A stretch of DNA of 64,000 bases from Myxococcus stipitatus (lineage in GTDB: Bacteria > Myxococcota > Myxococcia > Myxococcales > Myxococcaceae). The position numbers and the translations under genes were made by a program. The stretch lies in the NCBI RefSeq assembly GCF_037414475.1, contig NZ_CP147913.1, forward strand, positions 7,748,001-7,812,000, written 5' to 3'. The notes under the pieces are model-generated. The model had not been told where the DNA came from, made no database searches, and saw only the letters and a list, made by a program, of their open reading frames with translations. This document shows positions 35,976 through 43,821 of the stretch, piece by piece. Position 1 is the stretch's first letter; every line of letters begins with the position of its first letter.

Positions 35976-36035
35976 AGTCAGCGGCCCCGCGGCGTGCACG
36001 GGGCTTGTATGCTCCGCTCCTGAGTGGAGGTGGCG

Positions 36036-37469
36036 ATGTCGCGCGCGCACGGGTGTCCGCTGCTGGCCCTCGTCCTTCTCGTGGGGCTCTCGTGCGTGGG
36101 TGTTCCGCGTCCGCATCCCGCGAAGGACCCGGCTTCTCTCCGCTACACCGTCACCTTCGTTCGCGAGCCCGCCCCTGCGCTCGACGTGGAGGTGGTGTTG
36201 GTGCGGGGCACGCCGCGCGTGTTTCGCTTCACGTCGCCGGGCGGCGTGGAGTCGGTGAGCGCCTATCGCGAGGACGGTGAGCACTTCGAGTTGCCGGTGG
36301 AGGAGGGGCGGGTGCTCCTGCCCGTGGACATCCGGTTCCTGCGCTACCGCTATGCGCTGGATGCCCCCGGCCGCTCACGTCGGCATGGCTTCTTCGAGGG
36401 AATGGGGGAGGGCGACACCTGGCACGTCGCGGGACGTGCGTACCTCATCCGTCCGAACCAGACGCCACCGGACCTGCGCGTGGAGTTGGCCGTGGAGGGC
36501 ACGCAGGCGTTGCTGCCCTGGCAGCCGGATGAGACAGGGTTGTATCGGCTTCGCGCGGAGGACCTGGTGGACTCGGGCTTCCATGGGTTTGGTGGAAGCC
36601 GCTGCCAGGTGCTGCTGCCGGACGCGGTGTTGGACGTGGCGGTGCTGGGCCGCTTTCGTCAGTTGGATGACACTCAGGTCTGTGGCTGGCTGAAGCAGGC
36701 CGCGGACGAAGTGCTCACGGTGCGCCGTACCTTCCCTTATCCGCGCGTCACCGTGCGTGTCATTCCCGTGCCTGGACATGAAGGCCCCAGCCTCTTCGGC
36801 ATGGTGCTCTGGAGTTCGCCGCCCAGCGTCTCCTTGCTCGTGGGACAGGACGCGGACCTCGCTTCGTTCGAGCGCGATTGGGTGGCGCTTCACGAACTGC
36901 TGCACCTGACGCATCCGGCCTTCCTGCCGCGTGTGCCATGGCTGTCCGAGGGGCTGGCCACCTATTACACCGAGGTTGCTCGCGTGCGCTCCGGACGGCA
37001 AAGCGCTCAGCGCGGATGGGAGGAGTTGGTGGATGGCTTCGCGCGCGGCCGTCGCGTGGCGGGAGCCCGCACGATGGAAGAGGTGGTTTCCGGAAACAGT
37101 TTTTCGCCCGGCACGTATTGGACGGGAGCACTGCTCGCATTGCATCTCGATGTGGAAATACGCCGTGCCACTGGAAACCGTCGTCACCTGGAGGATGTGT
37201 TGGAGTTGCTCGCGGAGCGAGGGCACAGCTCGACGTTGGGGGCGTTTGGAGTCGCGGTGGATGCTGTCGCCGGACAGCCGCTCTTCGATGCATTGCTCGA
37301 GCGTCACCTCAAGCGCGCGGCTTTTGTGGAGCAGGAAGGTCTGCTACAAGCGCTGGGTGTGACGGCGGAATCAGAAGGCATTCAGTTCGTCCCAGCCCGC
37401 GACAGTTCATTGCGCGAGGCGATGGAACGTCGGGGATACATCCGCGAGTCACCTGGCATCCGTAGATGA
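36036..37469 (+). CDS. Zinc-metallopeptidase-like lipoprotein (gluzincin)
   Basis: A 477-residue protein with a lipoprotein signal (VGLSC, Cys near residue 18). The catalytic-type motif HELLH (about 286-290) is followed by WLSEGLATYY about 20 residues on, giving the HExxH...E pattern of M1/M61-type gluzincins. A beta-rich N-terminal region of ~200 residues precedes it. It is predicted to be an exported, lipid-anchored peptidase. The substrate is unknown. ATG 36036 is supported by GTGGAGGTGG. The copper-RiPP-like cassette begins 75 bases after its stop on the same strand, but no functional link is implied. Confidence 0.75.
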   Translation: MSRAHGCPLLALVLLVGLSCVGVPRPHPAKDPASLRYTVTFVREPAPALDVEVVLVRGTPRVFRFTSPGGVESVSAYREDGEHFELPVEEGRVLLPVDIRFLRYRYALDAPGRSRRHGFFEGMGEGDTWHVAGRAYLIRPNQTPPDLRVELAVEGTQALLPWQPDETGLYRLRAEDLVDSGFHGFGGSRCQVLLPDAVLDVAVLGRFRQLDDTQVCGWLKQAADEVLTVRRTFPYPRVTVRVIPVPGHEGPSLFGMVLWSSPPSVSLLVGQDADLASFERDWVALHELLHLTHPAFLPRVPWLSEGLATYYTEVARVRSGRQSAQRGWEELVDGFARGRRVAGARTMEEVVSGNSFSPGTYWTGALLALHLDVEIRRATGNRRHLEDVLELLAERGHSSTLGAFGVAVDAVAGQPLFDALLERHLKRAAFVEQEGLLQALGVTAESEGIQFVPARDSSLREAMERRGYIRESPGIRR

Positions 37470-37471
37470 GG

Positions 37472-37527
37472 CTCAAGGTTTTGAGTCCCACGCGGTACTA
37501 GAAGTCGTTCCCCCTCAACGCAGTACT
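37472..37527 (+). promoter_or_regulatory. Promoter region of the RiPP-like cassette
   Basis: Between the peptidase and the precursor gene lie a small inverted repeat (CTCAA-GGTT-TTGAG, 37472-37485) and two copies of GCRGTACT (37492-37499 and 37520-37527) spaced 28 bases apart. The first could end the upstream gene and the second pair could bind a regulator. Regulator identity and promoter class are unknown. Confidence 0.35.
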
Positions 37528-37544
37528 GAAAGGAAGCAAGCACC

Positions 37545-37814
37545 ATGAACGCGAAGGCTCTTGCGGCGATTGTCGGCACCCTGTCCCTGGCCTCCCTCGC
37601 CACTGGCTGTGCCTCCACCAAGGCGGCGGAGGGCCAGCCGGCCGCCGCGGAGAAGGGCGCCGAGGGCAGCTGTGGCGCCGCGAAGACCGAGGAGAACAAG
37701 GGCGCCGAGGGCAGCTGCGGCGCGGCGAAGCAGGATGCCGCCCCCGCGGCGACGCCGGAGAAGGGCGCCGAGCACTCCTGCGGCGCGGGTGGCTGCGGCG
37801 GTCAGAAGAAGTAA
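37545..37814 (+). CDS. Candidate MNIO-modified precursor peptide (HvfA/bufferin-like)
   Basis: An 89-residue protein. An N-terminal signal ends at LATGC (Cys22), compatible with either lipoprotein or plain export. The rest is a low-complexity tail with three near-identical repeats: KGAEGSCGAAK (37-47), KGAEGSCGAAK (52-62) and KGAEHSCGAGG (73-83), the last followed by CGGQKK. Cysteines lie at 22, 43, 58, 79 and 84. In the HvfA/bufferin family, short exported peptides carry EGKCG-type repeats whose Cys are modified by a DUF692 (MNIO) enzyme, and they bind copper. Here the motif is EGSCG/EHSCG. The next two genes are the matching DUF692 and DUF2063 genes. The start has a good AAGGAAG site. Confidence 0.78.
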   Translation: MNAKALAAIVGTLSLASLATGCASTKAAEGQPAAAEKGAEGSCGAAKTEENKGAEGSCGAAKQDAAPAATPEKGAEHSCGAGGCGGQKK

Positions 37815-37855
37815 TCCGGGACGGATTCAGGGCCGGTGACACCAGCCGGCCTGCT

Positions 37856-37885
37856 GGGCGGTGGGAAGAGGACCTCCCGCCGCCC
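37856..37885 (+). promoter_or_regulatory. Hairpin between precursor and DUF692 genes
   Basis: GGGCGG-T-GGGA (37856-37866) pairs with TCCC-G-CCGCCC (37875-37885), 11 pairs with one T-G wobble and an 8-base loop. A second stem GGCCGG/CCGGCC (37831-37836, 37846-37851) precedes it. It lies after the precursor stop and before the DUF692 ribosome-binding site. Such hairpins commonly give more precursor than enzyme; this is the inferred role. Confidence 0.6.
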
Positions 37886-37916
37886 GGTTCATGAAGCTCC
37901 CTGGAGGTGCCTGGCC

Positions 37917-38765
37917 GTGGTGGTGACGTACGCGCGAAGACACGGACTGAAGTCGCTGGGCGTGGGCATCGGCTTGCGCAGGAGCTTCTACGAAGAGCTG
38001 CCCCGGACCGAGCGCGCGCTCGACTGGGTGGAGATCATCCCGGAGAACTTCCTGTCTCTCGGAGGCCGCCCCCACCGCGCGTTGGAGGCCTGCCGCGAGC
38101 GTTGGCCGGTGTTGCCGCACGGCGTGGGGTTGGACATCGGTGGGCCGGACGCGCTCGACGTGGACTACGTCACGGCGCTGGCCTCGCTGGTGAAGCACGT
38201 GGACGCGCCGTTCTTCTCGGACCACCTTTGCTACTCGCGGCTTGACGGCGTGTATCTGCACGACCTGTTGCCGCTGCCCTTCAGCGAGGCGGTGGTGGAG
38301 CACGTCGTCCCCCGGGTGCGCGAGGTGATGGCCCGCGTGGGCCGGCCCTTCCTGCTGGAGAACCCGAGCTACTACGCGAACATGCCCGGAGGCACGCTCT
38401 CCGAGGCGGACTTCCTTCGGCACGTGGTGGAAGAGGCCGACTGCGGCCTGCTGCTCGACGTGAACAACGTCTACGTCAACGCGCGCAATCACGGCTACGA
38501 CGCGCGCGCCTTCGTGGACGCGCTGCCGCTGGAGCGCGTGGTGCAGATCCACCTCGCGGGACACACGACGTATCCCGACGTCATCATCGACACGCACGGC
38601 GACCGCGTCTGCGACGACGTGTGGTCGCTGTATCGCTACGTGCTGGAGCGCACCGGGCCCGTGTCCACGCTCATCGAATGGGACCAGGACATCCCGTCGA
38701 TGGCGGCGGTGTTGGACGAGGCGGACCTGGCGCGCGCGGTGGTGCGTGAAGGGGAGGGCCGATGA
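37917..38765 (+). CDS. DUF692-family MNIO enzyme
   Basis: A 282-residue protein of the DUF692 family, a TIM-barrel multinuclear non-haem iron enzyme that modifies peptide cysteines. Candidate metal-ligand segments are visible: EIIPENF, HGVGLDIG, SDHLCY, LENPSYY, DVNNVYVNARNHG, IHLAGHT, DTHGDRV and IEWDQDIP. GTG 37917 is chosen as start because GGAGG lies 10 bases upstream and the protein then starts just before SLGVGIGLRRSF. Longer starts (37836) are less likely. It follows the Cys-repeat precursor and overlaps the DUF2063 gene by ATGA. Substrate: the upstream peptide, by context. Confidence 0.9.
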   Translation: MVVTYARRHGLKSLGVGIGLRRSFYEELPRTERALDWVEIIPENFLSLGGRPHRALEACRERWPVLPHGVGLDIGGPDALDVDYVTALASLVKHVDAPFFSDHLCYSRLDGVYLHDLLPLPFSEAVVEHVVPRVREVMARVGRPFLLENPSYYANMPGGTLSEADFLRHVVEEADCGLLLDVNNVYVNARNHGYDARAFVDALPLERVVQIHLAGHTTYPDVIIDTHGDRVCDDVWSLYRYVLERTGPVSTLIEWDQDIPSMAAVLDEADLARAVVREGEGR

Positions 38766-39499
38766 AGCCCGTGCTCAAGCACTTCTTCGACAGCATGGGC
38801 GCCTATCTCGCGAGTCCCGGGAGTGTGTCACTCCAGCGACTGTACGGCGAGCATCCGGGGTGGGCCGCGCCGTCCTCGCGGGTGTCGCTCTATGGCGACT
38901 TCGTGCGAGGGCATGTGCGAGGCGCGCTCGAGAAGCTCTTCCCGTTGGTGCGTGGCGCGGTGGGGCCCGAGGCATGGCAGGCGCTCGTGGAGGACTACAC
39001 CCACACCCGGCCCGCGCGGCACCATGAGGTGAATCACCTGGGCGAGGGCTTCCCCTCGTTCATCGCGGACACGCTCCCGTCACGAGGCCTCGCGCCCTTC
39101 GTCCCCGCGCTGGCGCGGTTCGAGTGGACGGACTTCGCGGTGTTCGCGTCCCAGGCGGAGACACCGGAGCGAGTGACGTCACTCACGCCGAACCCGACGC
39201 TGGTGGTGCTGGAGCACGCGTGGCGAATCTGCGCCTACGTGCGAGCCCGGGGCGTGGGTGGGCCGCCGGAGTCCGGTGACGAGCTGGCGCTGGTGTGGCG
39301 GCATCCCGAGGGCCTGGTCTCGTACTACCTGGAGGCCACGCCTCACGCGCTGCTCGTGCTGAAGATGGCGGTGGAAGGGCTGTCCGCGTCGGAGGTGTCG
39401 GTGGCCACGGGAATGCCCGAGGCCGACATCCTGGACGCCGTGTCACGCCTGTCCCGGGACGGCCTGGTGCTGGCGCCTCGGGGCGACGCGACTACCTGA
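38762..39499 (+). CDS. DUF2063-family partner of the MNIO enzyme
   Basis: A 245-residue protein of the DUF2063 family (HvfC/BufC-like). The N-terminal helical part, with FFDSMGAYLASPGSVS and RLYGEHP, resembles the RiPP-recognition region of the family. The C-terminal half ends in a wHTH-like stretch (SEVSVATGMPEADILDAVSRLSRDGL). These proteins assist the DUF692 enzyme in substrate binding. Start ATG 38762 overlaps the DUF692 stop by four bases. The convergent downstream gene overlaps its stop by 8 bases. Together the three genes form a compact cassette with no dedicated transporter in the window. Confidence 0.88.
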   Translation: MKPVLKHFFDSMGAYLASPGSVSLQRLYGEHPGWAAPSSRVSLYGDFVRGHVRGALEKLFPLVRGAVGPEAWQALVEDYTHTRPARHHEVNHLGEGFPSFIADTLPSRGLAPFVPALARFEWTDFAVFASQAETPERVTSLTPNPTLVVLEHAWRICAYVRARGVGGPPESGDELALVWRHPEGLVSYYLEATPHALLVLKMAVEGLSASEVSVATGMPEADILDAVSRLSRDGLVLAPRGDATT

Positions 39500-40598
39500 G
39501 CACCGAGCACACCCGCCCGTAGCGGGAGTCCTGGCAGTGAGACACGTCCGGACACTCCAGGTCCTCGGTGCAGGGCACGGTGCAGCGGCCCTCCACGCAC
39601 ACGCCCTTCGCCAGTCCCAGCTTCTGGCAACGGGTGTCGTCCGCGCACTCGTCGCCCAGGCGCTCCAACGCGCCGCAGCCCACGAAGCGGGAAGGGTCCG
39701 GGAGGCAGCGGCCGAGCTGGCAGGTGAAGCCCGCCTCGCAGCGGTTCGCCGCGAAGTCCTGCTCGTCCTCGTTCGCCGCCTCGGTGCACTGCTTCACGCA
39801 GACCCGGCTCCCATCGGCGAAGGGGTGGCAGGAGGCGCCGATGTCTTCACAGCTCCCATCGCTTCCACAGGCGCCGCAGCTCGGCCCCACCGCTCCGCAG
39901 CGGAAGCCCTTGCACATCATCCCCGCGCCGCACTGCGCGTCCTGCACGCACTCCACGCACTTGCCGCCAGGTGCGCAGACCAGTCCGTCCGCGCAGCCCG
40001 TCAGGGCGCAGCGGTTGACGATGCCTGAGTTGGGAATGAGCTCGAGCTTGAGTTCCTTCTTCTCGCCCGAGCCCACACACGCCTCGGTCGAGAGGGAAGG
40101 GAAGCCCGAGCCGGAGAGTGTCAGCGAGTAGCAACCATCCGGCAGGGGACCCACCCGCAGCCGGCCCGCGCCATCCAGAATCAGCCGGTCGAAAGGCGTG
40201 TCCTGCACGGACACCTGTACGCCCTCGACGCGCTCGCCGTGGGTCGCCTTCACGCGCATCTCGAAGAAGCCCGCGTGCCGAGGCTCCACGCGAGGCACAT
40301 CCACCGCCTTGCCTCCGGAGACCCTCACCGCCACGCGTGTGGCCTTCTCGGCGGTCGCGACGATGAAGAGCTCCGCGGTGCCCGTGGGGACGTCCTCGAG
40401 CCTGAAGCGCCCCTCGGCATCCACCGTGGTGCGCACCTCGGGGGCCGCCACCAGGGCGACGATGGCCACCGACGGGTCATACTCCGTGAGCTGTCCCTGG
40501 ATGGTGCCCACGCGCAAGGGCGCGTTCTCCAGGTTGCCGCATGCCCCCAGGCATAGGGCGAGGACGGCACTTGTCGCGATGTGGAATCTCGAGCGCAT
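39492..40598 (-). CDS. Cys-rich lipoprotein with carboxypeptidase-regulatory-like N-terminus
   Basis: A 368-residue protein. The lipobox is CLGAC (Cys near residue 20). Residues ~30-190 carry two beta-sandwich, carboxypeptidase-regulatory-like repeats (YDPSVAIVALVAAPEVRTTVDAEGRF-type strands). The rest (~195-368) is packed with Cys in an EGF/TNFR-like pattern of repeated CxxGxxC and CVECVQDAQCGAG modules typical of myxobacterial surface proteins. It starts at ATG 40598, overlapping the upstream caspase-like gene's stop by one base (TGATG). It is the last gene of the sigma/anti-sigma/caspase-like unit. Confidence 0.75.
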   Translation of the reverse strand: MRSRFHIATSAVLALCLGACGNLENAPLRVGTIQGQLTEYDPSVAIVALVAAPEVRTTVDAEGRFRLEDVPTGTAELFIVATAEKATRVAVRVSGGKAVDVPRVEPRHAGFFEMRVKATHGERVEGVQVSVQDTPFDRLILDGAGRLRVGPLPDGCYSLTLSGSGFPSLSTEACVGSGEKKELKLELIPNSGIVNRCALTGCADGLVCAPGGKCVECVQDAQCGAGMMCKGFRCGAVGPSCGACGSDGSCEDIGASCHPFADGSRVCVKQCTEAANEDEQDFAANRCEAGFTCQLGRCLPDPSRFVGCGALERLGDECADDTRCQKLGLAKGVCVEGRCTVPCTEDLECPDVSHCQDSRYGRVCSVLR

Positions 40599-42250
40599 CA
40601 GAACCGGTACCCCGCACCGGCCCATGCGCCGGTGAAACCCACGGCCTGTCCTTCCCCATCCACGACCACATACGTGAGCATGAGCTGCGCCTGGGTCATC
40701 AACTCCAGGCGCTCTCCCATGCGCAGCACCACGCCACCCACCACGCCGGGGCTGACCGTGAAGAAGCTCTGGCCGCCGGCGGTTGTCTCCACATCAAAGG
40801 ACCGGCCCAGGTACAAGGCGGCCACACGTGGGCCCGCGAACAGCGTCAGCCGCTCCCATCGCCACAGGTAGGGCAACGCCACGCCGGCGGAGAAGGTGGT
40901 GTAGCGGAAGGGAACGTCGTCCCCCGGTTGGAGCATGAGGGCGCGCTTGCCCGTGCTGAAGCTCACGTCGAACTGCAGCCCGAAGTCGCGCAGCGGCCGG
41001 TCCTCCAACCGCAGGGCGACCGCGAGCTCCGGCGCCATGGGCAGCAGCTCCGCGCGGCTGCGAGCGTCCGCGAAGGTGAACATGCCCCCGAGCAGCGACA
41101 GCGAGCGCCGGGGAAACGCATCAGACAGGAGCTGCTCCAGGGGGAGCCGCTCGCCCGAGTCCACCTCCACCTCGCGGTGCACCAGCACCGCGCCGCCCTT
41201 GGTCAATTCCACCGTGCGCTTGCCGGGCACCACCGCGGCGCCGCCCGGCAGCTCCACGCGGGGCTCTCCATCCACCTTGAGCGTGAAGCCATCCAACCGG
41301 GGGTTGTACGAGAACAGCTCCGGCTGGCCCGTGCGCGCGATACGTCCCGACAGCACCACGGGGTCCGCGCCCACTTCCATGATTTCCGCCGAGGGGCGCT
41401 GGCGTCCTTCGGTGAAGGCAAAGGTGCGGCGGCGCGCGTAGTCGTGGGCCTCCGTCGCGGTGACGGCGCCATCCGCGTTGCGGTCCGCGCCGCCCCCCAG
41501 TCCCTCGATGAGGAAGTGCGTGTAGATGTCGTTGCGAAGGCCCTCGTCCTCGCGCGCCGTCTCGCCCCAGTCGCAGGCGGCGAACACCATGGACGCGCGT
41601 GAAGACTCCTCCAGCGGCCGCGCATAGAAGCCCGACTTGATGCCCGTCAGCTCCTTCTCCAGCTCCTTGGGTAACAGCGACTTGCCGTTGCCGCTGTGAC
41701 ACGACGCGAGCACCAGGAGCCGCCGCCGGCTGGGCAGTGAGTCGAACTCCGCCTTGAGCGCGTCCATGGCGAGCGCCGTCTGGGCCACGGCCCGGTAGGA
41801 CGCATCGCGTGTCACCAGGTAGCGCCGCAGCTCCCCCGTGGCATCGCGGGCGAGGGTTCCGTGCGCGGAGAAGTAGACGACCACCACGTCGTCCGGCCGG
41901 TGGGCCTCCTCGCGCAACCGCCGCAGCGCCTGGAGGATGGCGGCGCGGGTCGTCTCTTCGGGGCGCGTGAGGACACGCACCTGGTCGAATCCTCCACGCG
42001 CCGGGTCCAGCATGGCCGCCGCCAGGTCCGTGGCGTCCTTGGCCGGGTAGCGCAGGTTGCGCCAGGCGGGGTCCGCGAACTCGGAGATGCCCACCAGCAG
42101 CGCCATGCGCCGGGGCGTATACGCGCTGGACAGGGCCTCCTCGTCGAGCCGGAGCGGCACGAGTCCACCCTTCTCCGTCCCGCGGGACGAAGAGGTCGCG
42201 CATGCCGTCAGCGCCGCCAGCAGGATGGGAAGCAGGGTCCTCACGCGCAC
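40598..42250 (-). CDS. Caspase-like (C14) lipoprotein with beta-rich C-terminus
   Basis: A 550-residue protein. The lipobox (LTACATS, Cys17) anchors it outside the cytoplasm. The caspase-like domain (about 48-260) has the dyad His130 in YFSAHGT and Cys184 in LASCHSGN, with ALLVGISEF and TEAHDYARRR strands. The C-terminal ~200 residues are Gly/aromatic-rich strands ending in a terminal Phe (AGAGYRF), like an outer-membrane barrel. That combination with a lipid anchor is unusual. It starts at GTG 42250. It is embedded between an anti-sigma gene and a Cys-rich lipoprotein gene, all in one direction and with 4-base or negative gaps. Confidence 0.82.
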   Translation of the reverse strand: MRVRTLLPILLAALTACATSSSRGTEKGGLVPLRLDEEALSSAYTPRRMALLVGISEFADPAWRNLRYPAKDATDLAAAMLDPARGGFDQVRVLTRPEETTRAAILQALRRLREEAHRPDDVVVVYFSAHGTLARDATGELRRYLVTRDASYRAVAQTALAMDALKAEFDSLPSRRRLLVLASCHSGNGKSLLPKELEKELTGIKSGFYARPLEESSRASMVFAACDWGETAREDEGLRNDIYTHFLIEGLGGGADRNADGAVTATEAHDYARRRTFAFTEGRQRPSAEIMEVGADPVVLSGRIARTGQPELFSYNPRLDGFTLKVDGEPRVELPGGAAVVPGKRTVELTKGGAVLVHREVEVDSGERLPLEQLLSDAFPRRSLSLLGGMFTFADARSRAELLPMAPELAVALRLEDRPLRDFGLQFDVSFSTGKRALMLQPGDDVPFRYTTFSAGVALPYLWRWERLTLFAGPRVAALYLGRSFDVETTAGGQSFFTVSPGVVGGVVLRMGERLELMTQAQLMLTYVVVDGEGQAVGFTGAWAGAGYRF

Positions 42251-42254
42251 CTGG

Positions 42255-43070
42255 TCAGGGGGAATTATCGCCGCTTCTCACGCGCACGTCGAACCGTGTG
42301 ACAGCCAGTGTGCCTTGTTCCCAGCGCTCACCTTCCCCCACCAACACCTGCTTCACTTCATCGGGGGATGGCTCCAGGCCCGTGGGGGAAGCCGCCAGCC
42401 ACAGCGTCAGCGGTCCGGACTCTCCCTCCAGGCTGACCCCGGAGAGTCCTTGTGGGCCCTGCAGGTCATGGGTCCCTGCCTCCAGCGCGAACTGCCCCAG
42501 GAGCTCCGGCTCCTGGCCGGCGCGCTGCTGGAAGAGCAGGGCGGTGCCCGCCTCGGTGGCGTGGTAGCGCAAGAGGAGCACGTCGCGCGGGTCCACGACG
42601 GTGTCCGGGTCCAGCCGGCGCAGGCGGCCATCCGCCCCTCGCGCCACCACCGCCAGCTCCAGCGCGATGCGGCCCACCTGCCCCTTCACGCCAGGGGCCG
42701 TGGACTCGGTGCCCAGCTCCACACCCGAGTCCGTCCGCCGCAGCCGCGGCACCAGCACCACCGCGAGCAGGGCCGCGGCCACCGCTCCCGTGATGAGGCC
42801 CCAGCGCCGCGCATCTGGCGGGGGGGCCTTGAGCTGCTTGCGCACCCGCGCGAAGCCGACTTCATTCAGCCGCGGCGGTTCGGCCGGAGCCGGGGCCAGG
42901 GCGAGCAGCACGGCGTCGGTGTGCCCATCGAGGATGCCGGGGCCGGGGTGGGAAGCGAGGAATCCCTCACACACCTCACACGCGGTGGCCAGGTGCTCGC
43001 GGAAGTACACCTCCGCCTCTGGCTCTCGACGGGCAAGGGCGCTGAGCGCCTCGTCATCCAGGTGTCTCAT
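42255..43070 (-). CDS. Putative anti-sigma factor
   Basis: A 271-residue protein. The N-terminal cytosolic part holds HLATACEVC (an H-x4-C-x2-C cluster, close to the zinc anti-sigma HxxxCxxC pattern). One membrane segment follows (about 92-110, LITGAVAAALLAVVLVP), then an extracytoplasmic beta-rich domain. It is directly downstream of an ECF sigma gene with a 6-base gap, the standard arrangement. It should hold the sigma factor at the membrane until a signal releases it. The zinc-site spacing is one residue longer than canonical. Confidence 0.82.
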   Translation of the reverse strand: MRHLDDEALSALARREPEAEVYFREHLATACEVCEGFLASHPGPGILDGHTDAVLLALAPAPAEPPRLNEVGFARVRKQLKAPPPDARRWGLITGAVAAALLAVVLVPRLRRTDSGVELGTESTAPGVKGQVGRIALELAVVARGADGRLRRLDPDTVVDPRDVLLLRYHATEAGTALLFQQRAGQEPELLGQFALEAGTHDLQGPQGLSGVSLEGESGPLTLWLAASPTGLEPSPDEVKQVLVGEGERWEQGTLAVTRFDVRVRSGDNSP

Positions 43071-43076
43071 GACCTC

Positions 43077-43652
43077 TCACTCCCACCGACCTGCGAGCAC
43101 TCGTCGCAGCAACTCTCTTTTGATACGACCCCGGAAGCGCTCGAGTCTCATCGTGACGGCGCTTTTCCCAACGCCCAACCGCTCGGCAATCTCACGGGCC
43201 GACAGCTCTCCTTCGATATAGAAGAGCTGGACTGTTCGCTTCTCTTCTCCCTCGGGAAGCTCGTCGATGAGCTGGCGGACGGCGTCGATGTCCCGCTCGA
43301 GCTGGAGCGCCTCGGGGATGGCGGGGACACTCTCCGGCTCGGGGTCCGCGATGTCGTCTTCCAATCGCCTCAGGCTCGCCTTGCGCTCCAGCCGGGTCCT
43401 CGCCCGGTTCCGGGCGATGGACAACAGCCACGCCTCGAAGGCCGCCGCCTCCTTCAGGCGCGGAAGGGCGCGAAACGCCCGGACGAAGGTCTCCTGGATG
43501 ACGTCCTCCACCTCATCGGAGTCCAGCGTCCCGAACCCCGCCATCAACCGTGCCACCTGAGGGCGAGTGTGCCGGTACAGCTCGCTGAAGGCAGAGGTCT
43601 CCCCACTCGCCGCGCGCCGCACCCACTCCGCCAGTCCCTCCGTGGAGCCCAC
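43077..43652 (-). CDS. ECF RNA polymerase sigma factor
   Basis: A 191-residue sigma70-family protein. Region 2 spans ~20-85 ([51 protein letters not shown]). Region 4 spans ~135-190 ([30 protein letters not shown]). GTG 43652 is preferred over the longer frame start 43793 because GGAGGAAC precedes it, and the resulting length fits the ECF norm. It is also compatible with a divergent promoter to serC. It heads the unit sigma - anti-sigma - caspase-like lipoprotein - Cys-rich lipoprotein and probably autoregulates it. Confidence 0.88.
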
Positions 43653-43821
43653 CTGTTCCTCCAGACCCCCGGACCCGGCCGGTGGCCACGACTCTTTTTC
43701 CCCGGAGTTCCTCCCGCCTTCGCCGGGAAGCCGCCGGTGCGCCGTGCTTCCTACTGGCTCCCGGGGGGGCTTCGGGGAGAAGAATGGGGGCACGTCGTTT
43801 CAATTCCGCGAGGACCCCGCC

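Follow-up and report, generated by a model that had tools for sequence, protein, structure and literature searches.

A conserved cassette in Myxococcus stipitatus that appears to pair a BufB-like MNIO enzyme with an HvfA-like lipoprotein precursor

We analysed a window of 64,000 nucleotides from Myxococcus stipitatus (contig NZ_CP147913.1), whose genome is a single contig of 10.3 Mb with three matches to the multinuclear non-heme iron-dependent oxidative enzymes (MNIOs). One of these lies in a compact plus-strand cassette at 37545-39499 that encodes, in order, a lipobox-bearing peptide (A), a DUF692-type MNIO (B) and a DUF2063 partner (C; Table 1). The listed open reading frame (ORF) of B opens at 37836 and ends at 38765, and a ggagg motif together with the homologs favours an in-frame GTG at 37917, 37920 or 37923 as the start; C begins at 38762, giving an ATGA overlap. 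An earlier note, made from the letters of this DNA alone, had described an 89-residue peptide with repeats around Cys43, Cys58 and Cys79, followed by a DUF692 enzyme and a DUF2063 partner that overlap by ATGA. That description agrees with the ORF at 37545-37814, with the gene coordinates and with matches to PF05114 and PF09836.

Table 1. Features of the cassette and its linked neighbour in the window.
Feature	Position	Strand	Basis and details
Precursor peptide A, 89 aa	37545..37814	+	ORF; signal peptide 1-21, lipobox Cys22, linker, 5-mer Cys motifs at Cys43, 58, 79 and 84
MNIO enzyme B (DUF692/UPF0276), 281 aa	37920..38765	+	GTG start (37917-37923 ambiguous); PF05114; Arg20-Arg21, Asp255-Gln256
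Partner C, DUF2063 (PME-type 1), 245 aa	38762..39499	+	PF09836; C-terminal part like an RRE (recognition element of ribosomally synthesised and post-translationally modified peptides, RiPPs)
RNA hairpin between A and B	37855..37886	+	Arms 37855-37868 and 37873-37886; covariation
M61/M1-like HELLH metallopeptidase, predicted lipoprotein	36024..37469	+	Linked neighbour, possible accessory part

Conservation was assessed in 96 genomes of the family, which as taken by the search tool includes Archangium, Corallococcus and Hyalangium relatives. MNIO matches at E<=0.001 occur in 86 of the 96, with paralogs and other MNIO types counted, and 63 genomes contribute an ortholog set of 69 loci with enzyme identity of at least 73% (L004-L033 and L114-L152). 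A scripted search found a Cys-containing precursor of 60-130 residues with a lipobox just upstream of B in all 69 loci, and in every case the end of B runs into the start of a same-strand C, the two genes sharing 4 bases in 68 loci and 10 bases in one. The cassette is present in every genome of the window's genus (27/27). The earlier note had staked its proposal on enzyme and precursor being kept together in related genomes, as they are throughout the ortholog set. Six genomes (G002, G003, G006, G032, G033 and G034) carry second copies (L143, L145 and L148-L151) in which the precursor has six core cysteines and only 0-48 nt separate A from B, leaving no room for the hairpin described below; in G002, G003 and G006 the second copy lies ~55-66 kb from the first. 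The two further MNIOs of the M. stipitatus genome (G000:C1:9032912-9033691 and 10070350-10071075, the latter within a 713-residue frame) show tblastn identities to B of 29.5% and 27%. Both stay below the cut-offs of all NCBIfam models that they match, and a scripted search detected no precursor before either.

The sequence of A begins with MNAKALAAIVGTLSLASLATGC followed by ASTK, with the lipobox LATG directly before Cys22; the signal was judged from motif and hydrophobicity, without SignalP. The core carries 5-mers of the form EGSCG at Cys43 and Cys58, EHSCG at Cys79 and AGGCG at Cys84. A has no Pfam family, DUF2282 included, and gives no match to the BufA2 model. The 69 orthologous precursors, 67 of them distinct, all have a lipobox (ATGC in 62, AAGC in six, ASGC in one), and residue +2 is Ala in 67 and Val in two. 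Four core cysteines are found in 33 precursors, three in 27, six in six and five in two. The residue after the core Cys (n=261) is Gly at 186 positions, Ser at 57, Asn at 8, Lys at 6, Ala at 3 and His at 1, so that Gly, Ser, Asn or Ala follows at 254 of them; Glu stands three residues before the Cys at 161 positions, and the residue just before it is Ser at 159, Gly at 48 and Lys at 20. Some orthologs (L031, L138, L140 and L141) carry EGKCGEGKCG, and two of three scanned orthologous precursors with EGKCG or EHKCG pass NF050137, the model of the HvfA-type repeat KCGExKCG (L140 at 19.7 bits and L055 at 22.8; cut-off 19.5). The earlier note had seen in the C-terminal CGG and the lipobox a possible difference in chemistry or anchoring. 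Both features are present, but CGG is part of one more 5-mer (AGGCG) with no sign of different chemistry, and lipid anchoring has already been shown for the related peptide NedA.

The signal peptide itself is unusually well kept. Of 27 named loci, 24 include the neighbouring lipoprotein gene. In these, the 21 residues up to the lipobox Cys of A are 81% identical to the window at the median, compared with 20% ungapped or 47% gapped for the signal peptide of the neighbour, a small control of one gene whose lipobox was set by rule of thumb. Median identities of the mature parts are 69% for A and 61% for the neighbour. Among the 1449 signal-peptide codons of A in the 69 orthologs, 382 synonymous and 240 nonsynonymous changes relative to the window were counted. 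Conservation so far above that of the neighbour is as expected if the signal doubles as a leader, and we infer that the Sec signal of A may do so, as a sequence-specific constraint would fit. The comparison would thereby lend support to the suggestion, made for bufferins, that recognition by BufB-BufC extends to the signal (PMC12452194).

B matches PF05114 with 344 bits (cut-off 25) and passes the BufB model NF050167 (322.8 bits, cut-off 310), while falling below the cut-off of the HvfB model NF003818 (284.9 versus 360) and far under that of the MbnB model (49.6 versus 325). The ortholog L141, whose precursor has EGKCG repeats, follows the same pattern (BufB 313.9, HvfB 280.4), and L190, from a related genome in which the MNIO adjoins an EGKCG precursor, reaches 404.5 against HvfB. 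A tree was built from 71 hand-picked MNIOs with five EGKCG references, all from Myxococcota, and no Haemophilus or Fontimonas sequence; among these references L190 is HvfB by score and L187 (302.1) lies below 360. Classes of the comparison loci were assigned by eye, with DUF2282 (PF10048) then confirmed in five of five tested and BufA2 in one. Support for the clade of the window enzyme is 100/99. One row from a Planctomycetota metagenome-assembled genome (MAG; L060) falls inside it, and the five EGKCG references lie apart from it (98/85). Support is weak at the deeper forks, with 94/95 for the clade with its Myxococcota neighbours and 84/87 for the fork to DUF2282-type and Buf2-like enzymes. 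The locus keeps the HvfABC/bufferin-type character given to it in the earlier note, but the enzyme is not HvfB by either NCBIfam score or tree, and by score it is BufB.

Active-site residues were tabulated for the 71 tree rows with 3BWW as a ruler. All 25 rows of the window clade have an Arg pair and Asp-Gln, a combination also seen in several other Myxococcota rows (for example L061 and L067-L069). The ten DUF2282-type rows carry at most one Arg at the Arg-pair site together with Asp-Gln, and the motif EWDQ is common to them and B. L190, L191 and 3BWW have Arg-Arg with Asp-Phe, and L187-L189 have Arg-Phe with Asp-His or Asp-Lys. Across the 69 orthologs the pair is Arg-Arg in 68 and Arg-Lys in one (L027), the second site is Asp-Gln in 68 and Asp-Ala in one (L147), and the metal-site motifs DxNN, D[TS]HG and HxAGH are invariant. 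In HvfB, D242 and H244 are required for activity (PMC13419390), and by our own matching they correspond to the D and H of the DTHG of B. In the FonB pocket, Arg15 and Arg16 have been tied to Glu at position 1 of the 5-mer, and Phe250, beside the catalytic Asp249, to Lys3 and Gly5 (PMC13097082). Nearly all the orthologs keep the Arg pair of this HvfABC-type pocket but have Gln at the Phe site, and we propose Asp255 of B as the catalytic base. FonBC is reported to prefer strongly a small residue after Cys and to tolerate Ala, Arg or Thr for Lys at position 3 (PMC13097082). By sequence, B is thus a BufB-like enzyme with an HvfB-type Arg pair, adjoining an HvfA-like precursor.

C matches PF09836 (DUF2063) at 54.7 bits (cut-off 27.2). 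Its AlphaFold model has a predicted local distance difference test score (pLDDT) of 92.3 and a predicted template modelling score of 0.87. A Foldseek search of this model against the PDB gave three matches at E<=0.001, namely 3DEE (NGO1945) and chain A of the TglHI entries 8HI7 and 8HCI, which we take as TglI from its length (268-269 residues versus 304 for the DUF692 chain); the fourth match, chain C of the MbnABC entry 7FC0, is weak (E 0.27). From the sequence of C alone 3DEE is barely found (E 0.34). The modelled fold of C therefore resembles those of the MNIO partners 3DEE, treated as a type 1 partner in PMC12452194, and TglI.

Between A and B the RNA is predicted to fold. The gap is more stable than mononucleotide shuffles (median z -3.3, 63 loci), and its stem has a median of 15 pairs and a minimum of 10 in these 63 gaps, compared with a median of 9, a 95th percentile of 12 and a maximum of 16 in control windows inside B. 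Alignment of 41 of the 63 gaps of at least 60 nt (those of the six second copies are shorter) yields a 14-pair hairpin with compensatory changes in nine of 14 pairs, at 26 cells, and with 93.8% of cells paired. None of 500 shuffles reaches any of five measures, and shifting the hairpin partner by 1-3 columns lowers pairing from 94% to 48-68%. A strict hairpin pattern occurs once in each of 22 of the 96 genomes scanned, inside the cassette in 21 and at G036:C2:7460468 in the exception; a genome-wide repeat was considered and rejected for this pattern. Genomes of the window's genus, in which this sequence has drifted, all lack the strict pattern, and no Rfam match at E<=1 was obtained in 37400-39600. 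A role specific to this cassette is weakened by stems of similar length in six of 14 other MNIO precursor-enzyme gaps measured (15-16 pairs in L060, L061, L155, L157, L069 and L167; 8-14 in the rest), and long stems between precursor and enzyme may partly reflect base composition or a wider habit. A plain terminator was not adopted as a general explanation, the T-rich tail being present in a minority of loci and absent in the window. Because that tail is so often absent, we read the hairpin as a putative 3' stabiliser or leaky attenuator that would favour A over B and C. No sigma-70-like site was found in 37300-39700, and upstream of A the genus alignment is good only over roughly the last 40 bases, so no regulatory motif is claimed.

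What does the cassette make? Its membership in the MNIO/PME1 kind of RiPP system, which includes bufferins, oxazolins and captophorins, is close to certain, given an enzyme with the metal-site motifs, an adjoining DUF2063-RRE partner and an upstream Cys-containing precursor with a Sec signal. The proposal of a variant HvfABC/bufferin-type exported MNIO RiPP, already advanced in the earlier note, gains from the gene order, enzyme family, partner fold, universal lipobox and EGKCG of some orthologs. By analogy with characterised relatives, the product is probably a lipid-anchored, copper-binding RiPP of the 5-thiooxazole type, akin to captophorins and bufferins. The hairpin behind the message of A would first let production of A exceed that of B and C. 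Prior to export, C would bind the signal-peptide end of A as a leader and offer the Cys-Gly 5-mers to the iron enzyme B, which would oxidise up to four cysteines (43, 58, 79 and 84) with loss of four hydrogens each; A would then exit by Sec and be lipidated at Cys22. In M. xanthus, lipoproteins with Lys at +2 are retained in the inner membrane. Ala rather than Lys at this position would direct A to the outer membrane, where it could hold copper. Modification, lipidation and copper binding are extrapolated here from characterised relatives, the last being probable and the product chemistry likely.

Several observations weigh against this assignment. The window precursor scores 12.4 bits against NF050137, below the cut-off of 19.5, as does L043 (14.2) in spite of three EGKCG motifs, and the L029-type precursor gives no match; the model passes in just seven of 195 genomes of the phylum, although two of the seven (G036 and G080) pass at this cassette. 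One ortholog of the 69 has only two core cysteines, and for Ser, or His with Ser, in the 5-mer we found no tested counterpart in the cited work. C reaches only 59.3 bits against the HvfC model NF050145 (cut-off 142). The window hairpin has no T-run, and at least five T in the 10 nt after the stem occur in only 27 of 63 loci. Finally, the 64-kb window holds no DoxX or HMA-domain gene, although the genome has seven DoxX and three HMA matches, the nearest ~350 kb and >1.5 Mb away, respectively.

The last point bears on copper, which with no such gene nearby rests on the relatives and is slightly less favoured on that account. Literature searches on Myxococcus copper transcriptomes gave no expression evidence for a copper link, and a search for UPF0276 with Myxococcus found nothing. 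It is thus conceivable, though on balance unlikely, that the same RiPP chemistry serves another job, be it in oxidative, zinc, gold or general envelope stress, or as a redox or structural envelope lipopeptide. Such a role would suit a window free of DoxX and HMA genes, and the presence of the cassette in 63 of 96 family genomes and all 27 of the genus would fit housekeeping; copper, gold and oxidative stress are all reported inducers of such pathways, whose metal specificity is described as open (PMC13097082). In contrast, the characterised products generally bind Cu (PMC13097082), and the Cys-Gly 5-mers are kept across the orthologs, both of which favour copper.

The metallopeptidase gene upstream of A raises a further alternative, in which the peptide is modified, lipidated and then clipped by this enzyme to release a soluble metallophore; we regard this as improbable. 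The HExxH...E signature of the peptidase is invariant in its ortholog alignment, and its model (pLDDT 85.5) has as top Foldseek matches the M61 peptidases 7XYO, 4FGM (aminopeptidase N family) and 8J9C; the Pfam M61 score is below the cut-off for the window protein and above it in L063 and L065. By hand count, of the 65 genomes with a peptidase match of >=80 bits, at least 60 have it within ~5 kb of an MNIO on the same contig. Its position is reversed in three distant genomes (G009, G012 and G053), where it follows the enzyme instead of preceding the cassette, and at L065, the locus of G012, its GTG overlaps the C stop codon. PMC13097082 describes the proteolytic fate of EGKCG products as open. 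However, the linkage is mostly family synteny: some of the loci likewise keep thioesterase and TetR neighbours in synteny, and the 60 cases are therefore largely non-independent. Genus g7 has weak peptidase matches only, G002, G003 and G006 have two cassettes and one strong match each, and in G019, G027, G046, G048 and G050 the peptidase is away from every MNIO among the matches listed. The L063 and L065 peptidases also lack a lipobox in the frames used. We therefore treat the peptidase as a candidate accessory gene and make no claim that it is an essential part. On the other flank, a caspase-domain protein with a lipobox-like start (PF00656, 56.7 bits) is encoded on the minus strand at 40598-42250, beside ORFs at 43077-43793 and 42255-43070 that by eye resemble an extracytoplasmic function sigma factor and a regulator.

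That B and C act on some other substrate, leaving A an ordinary unmodified Cys-rich lipoprotein, would suit the low score of A against the HvfA-type model but is very hard to reconcile with a precursor directly before B in all 69 loci, its Cys-Gly 5-mers and conserved signal peptide, and EGKCG in some orthologs.

In this cassette a BufB-like myxobacterial lineage seems to work on HvfA-like repeats, which suggests that enzymes outside the HvfB branch can also take the short Cys-Gly repeat as substrate. An Arg pair matching Glu at position 1, together with Gln where Phe is tied to Lys and Gly, would offer a natural test of the FonB substrate rules, and the covarying hairpin is a candidate control of the precursor-to-enzyme ratio in such an operon. 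Myxobacteria are social bacteria that swap outer-membrane lipoproteins, which would open a lipid-anchored copper RiPP to a sharing experiment in a laboratory strain: in M. xanthus a type II signal for outer-membrane location suffices for TraAB-dependent transfer of mCherry (PMC3325183). TraA is encoded in the window's genome (NF033759, 1114.8 bits; cut-off 750). We offer as a speculative and rather doubtful idea, drawn from this precedent, that the modified peptide is an outer-membrane copper buffer shared among kin through outer membrane exchange. If so, cells with matured lipopeptide could hand finished copper-binding capacity to sisters lacking it, the RiPP becoming an exchanged public good, a role that to our knowledge no RiPP is known to have.

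Other MNIO loci encountered during the comparison were varied. Precursors without a lipobox and with KSCSG, KGCSG, KSCKG or KDCAG-like repeats precede related MNIOs in L153-L157, L061, L065 and L069, so the 5-mer is fluid in the phylum. In two Myxococcota MAGs, one of Polyangiaceae and one labelled Myxococcales (L067 3324-3971 and L068 3354-3986), a protein of ~210 residues before the MNIO has a lipobox-like signal, GCPA-type Cys repeats and a CxxCH domain that is weakly cytochrome P460-like (below cut-off), and may represent a RiPP core fused to a haem domain; these MNIOs group with those of two further family loci, L161 and L163 (99/99). In many genomes of the family without the lipobox cassette, the MNIO is preceded by a precursor that by eye is BufA2-like (L158-L160, L162 and L164-L173), and the L159 precursor scores 67.1 bits against BufA2 (cut-off 60). 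A MVPPQEHLS(E/D)(E/D)AATRTI-like sequence recurs in three small ORFs of G064 (L194 13128-14598) that lie ~5 kb from another MNIO and are possibly a family of leader-type precursors.

Among the papers listed by literature searches, none dealt with this myxobacterial cassette, although supplementary tables may list such loci; PMC12452194 does not use the string 'myxo' in its main text, and Myxococcota appear in PMC12636315 in connection with ChrH-like clusters. Among characterised systems, the cassette resembles HvfABC of Haemophilus, FonABC and NgoABC in its A-B-C order, Sec signal, 5-mer Cys-Gly repeats mostly with Glu at position 1, DUF2063 (PME1) partner and enzyme Arg pair. It differs from the EGKCG oxazolins and captophorins in having Ser, Gly or His at the Lys and Gly places, an enzyme below the HvfB cut-off, Gln for Phe beside the catalytic base and no DoxX in the window; as a member of HvfABC proper it fails with all three proteins (A on NF050137, B on NF003818, C on NF050145). 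For the EGKCG modification, an oxazolone-thioamide and a 5-thiooxazole structure have each been put forward, and PMC13097082 argues for the latter. The MbnABC and TglHI systems share an MNIO with a partner, and the fold of C is like that of the TglHI partner and weakly like 7FC0 chain C, but their precursors are described without Sec signals (PMC12452194) and the enzyme here is far from the MbnB model.

The lipobox places A with the lipidated RiPPs (DAG-RiPPs), and NedABC of Neisseria dentiae likewise combines a lipobox, a repeat core, an MNIO and a partner. NedA, an EGKCG lipoprotein, becomes triacylated in E. coli, where its three motifs together lose 12 Da (PMC12636315), so anchoring itself is not new; where NedA has canonical EGKCG, the present cassette has degenerate 5-mers and a lipobox in every ortholog of one family. 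With the bufferins Buf1 (DUF2282) and Buf2 (BufA2), of which the latter have predicted lipoprotein signals in ~16% (PMC12452194), it shares a BufB-scoring enzyme, the EWDQ motif of the DUF2282-type enzymes, a DUF2063 partner and a signal peptide. Its precursor, with Cys in short repeats, matches neither DUF2282 nor BufA2, whereas five of five tested Buf1-type comparison precursors match PF10048. Overall, the sequences point to a variant in which the enzyme belongs to one branch and the peptide looks like that of another.

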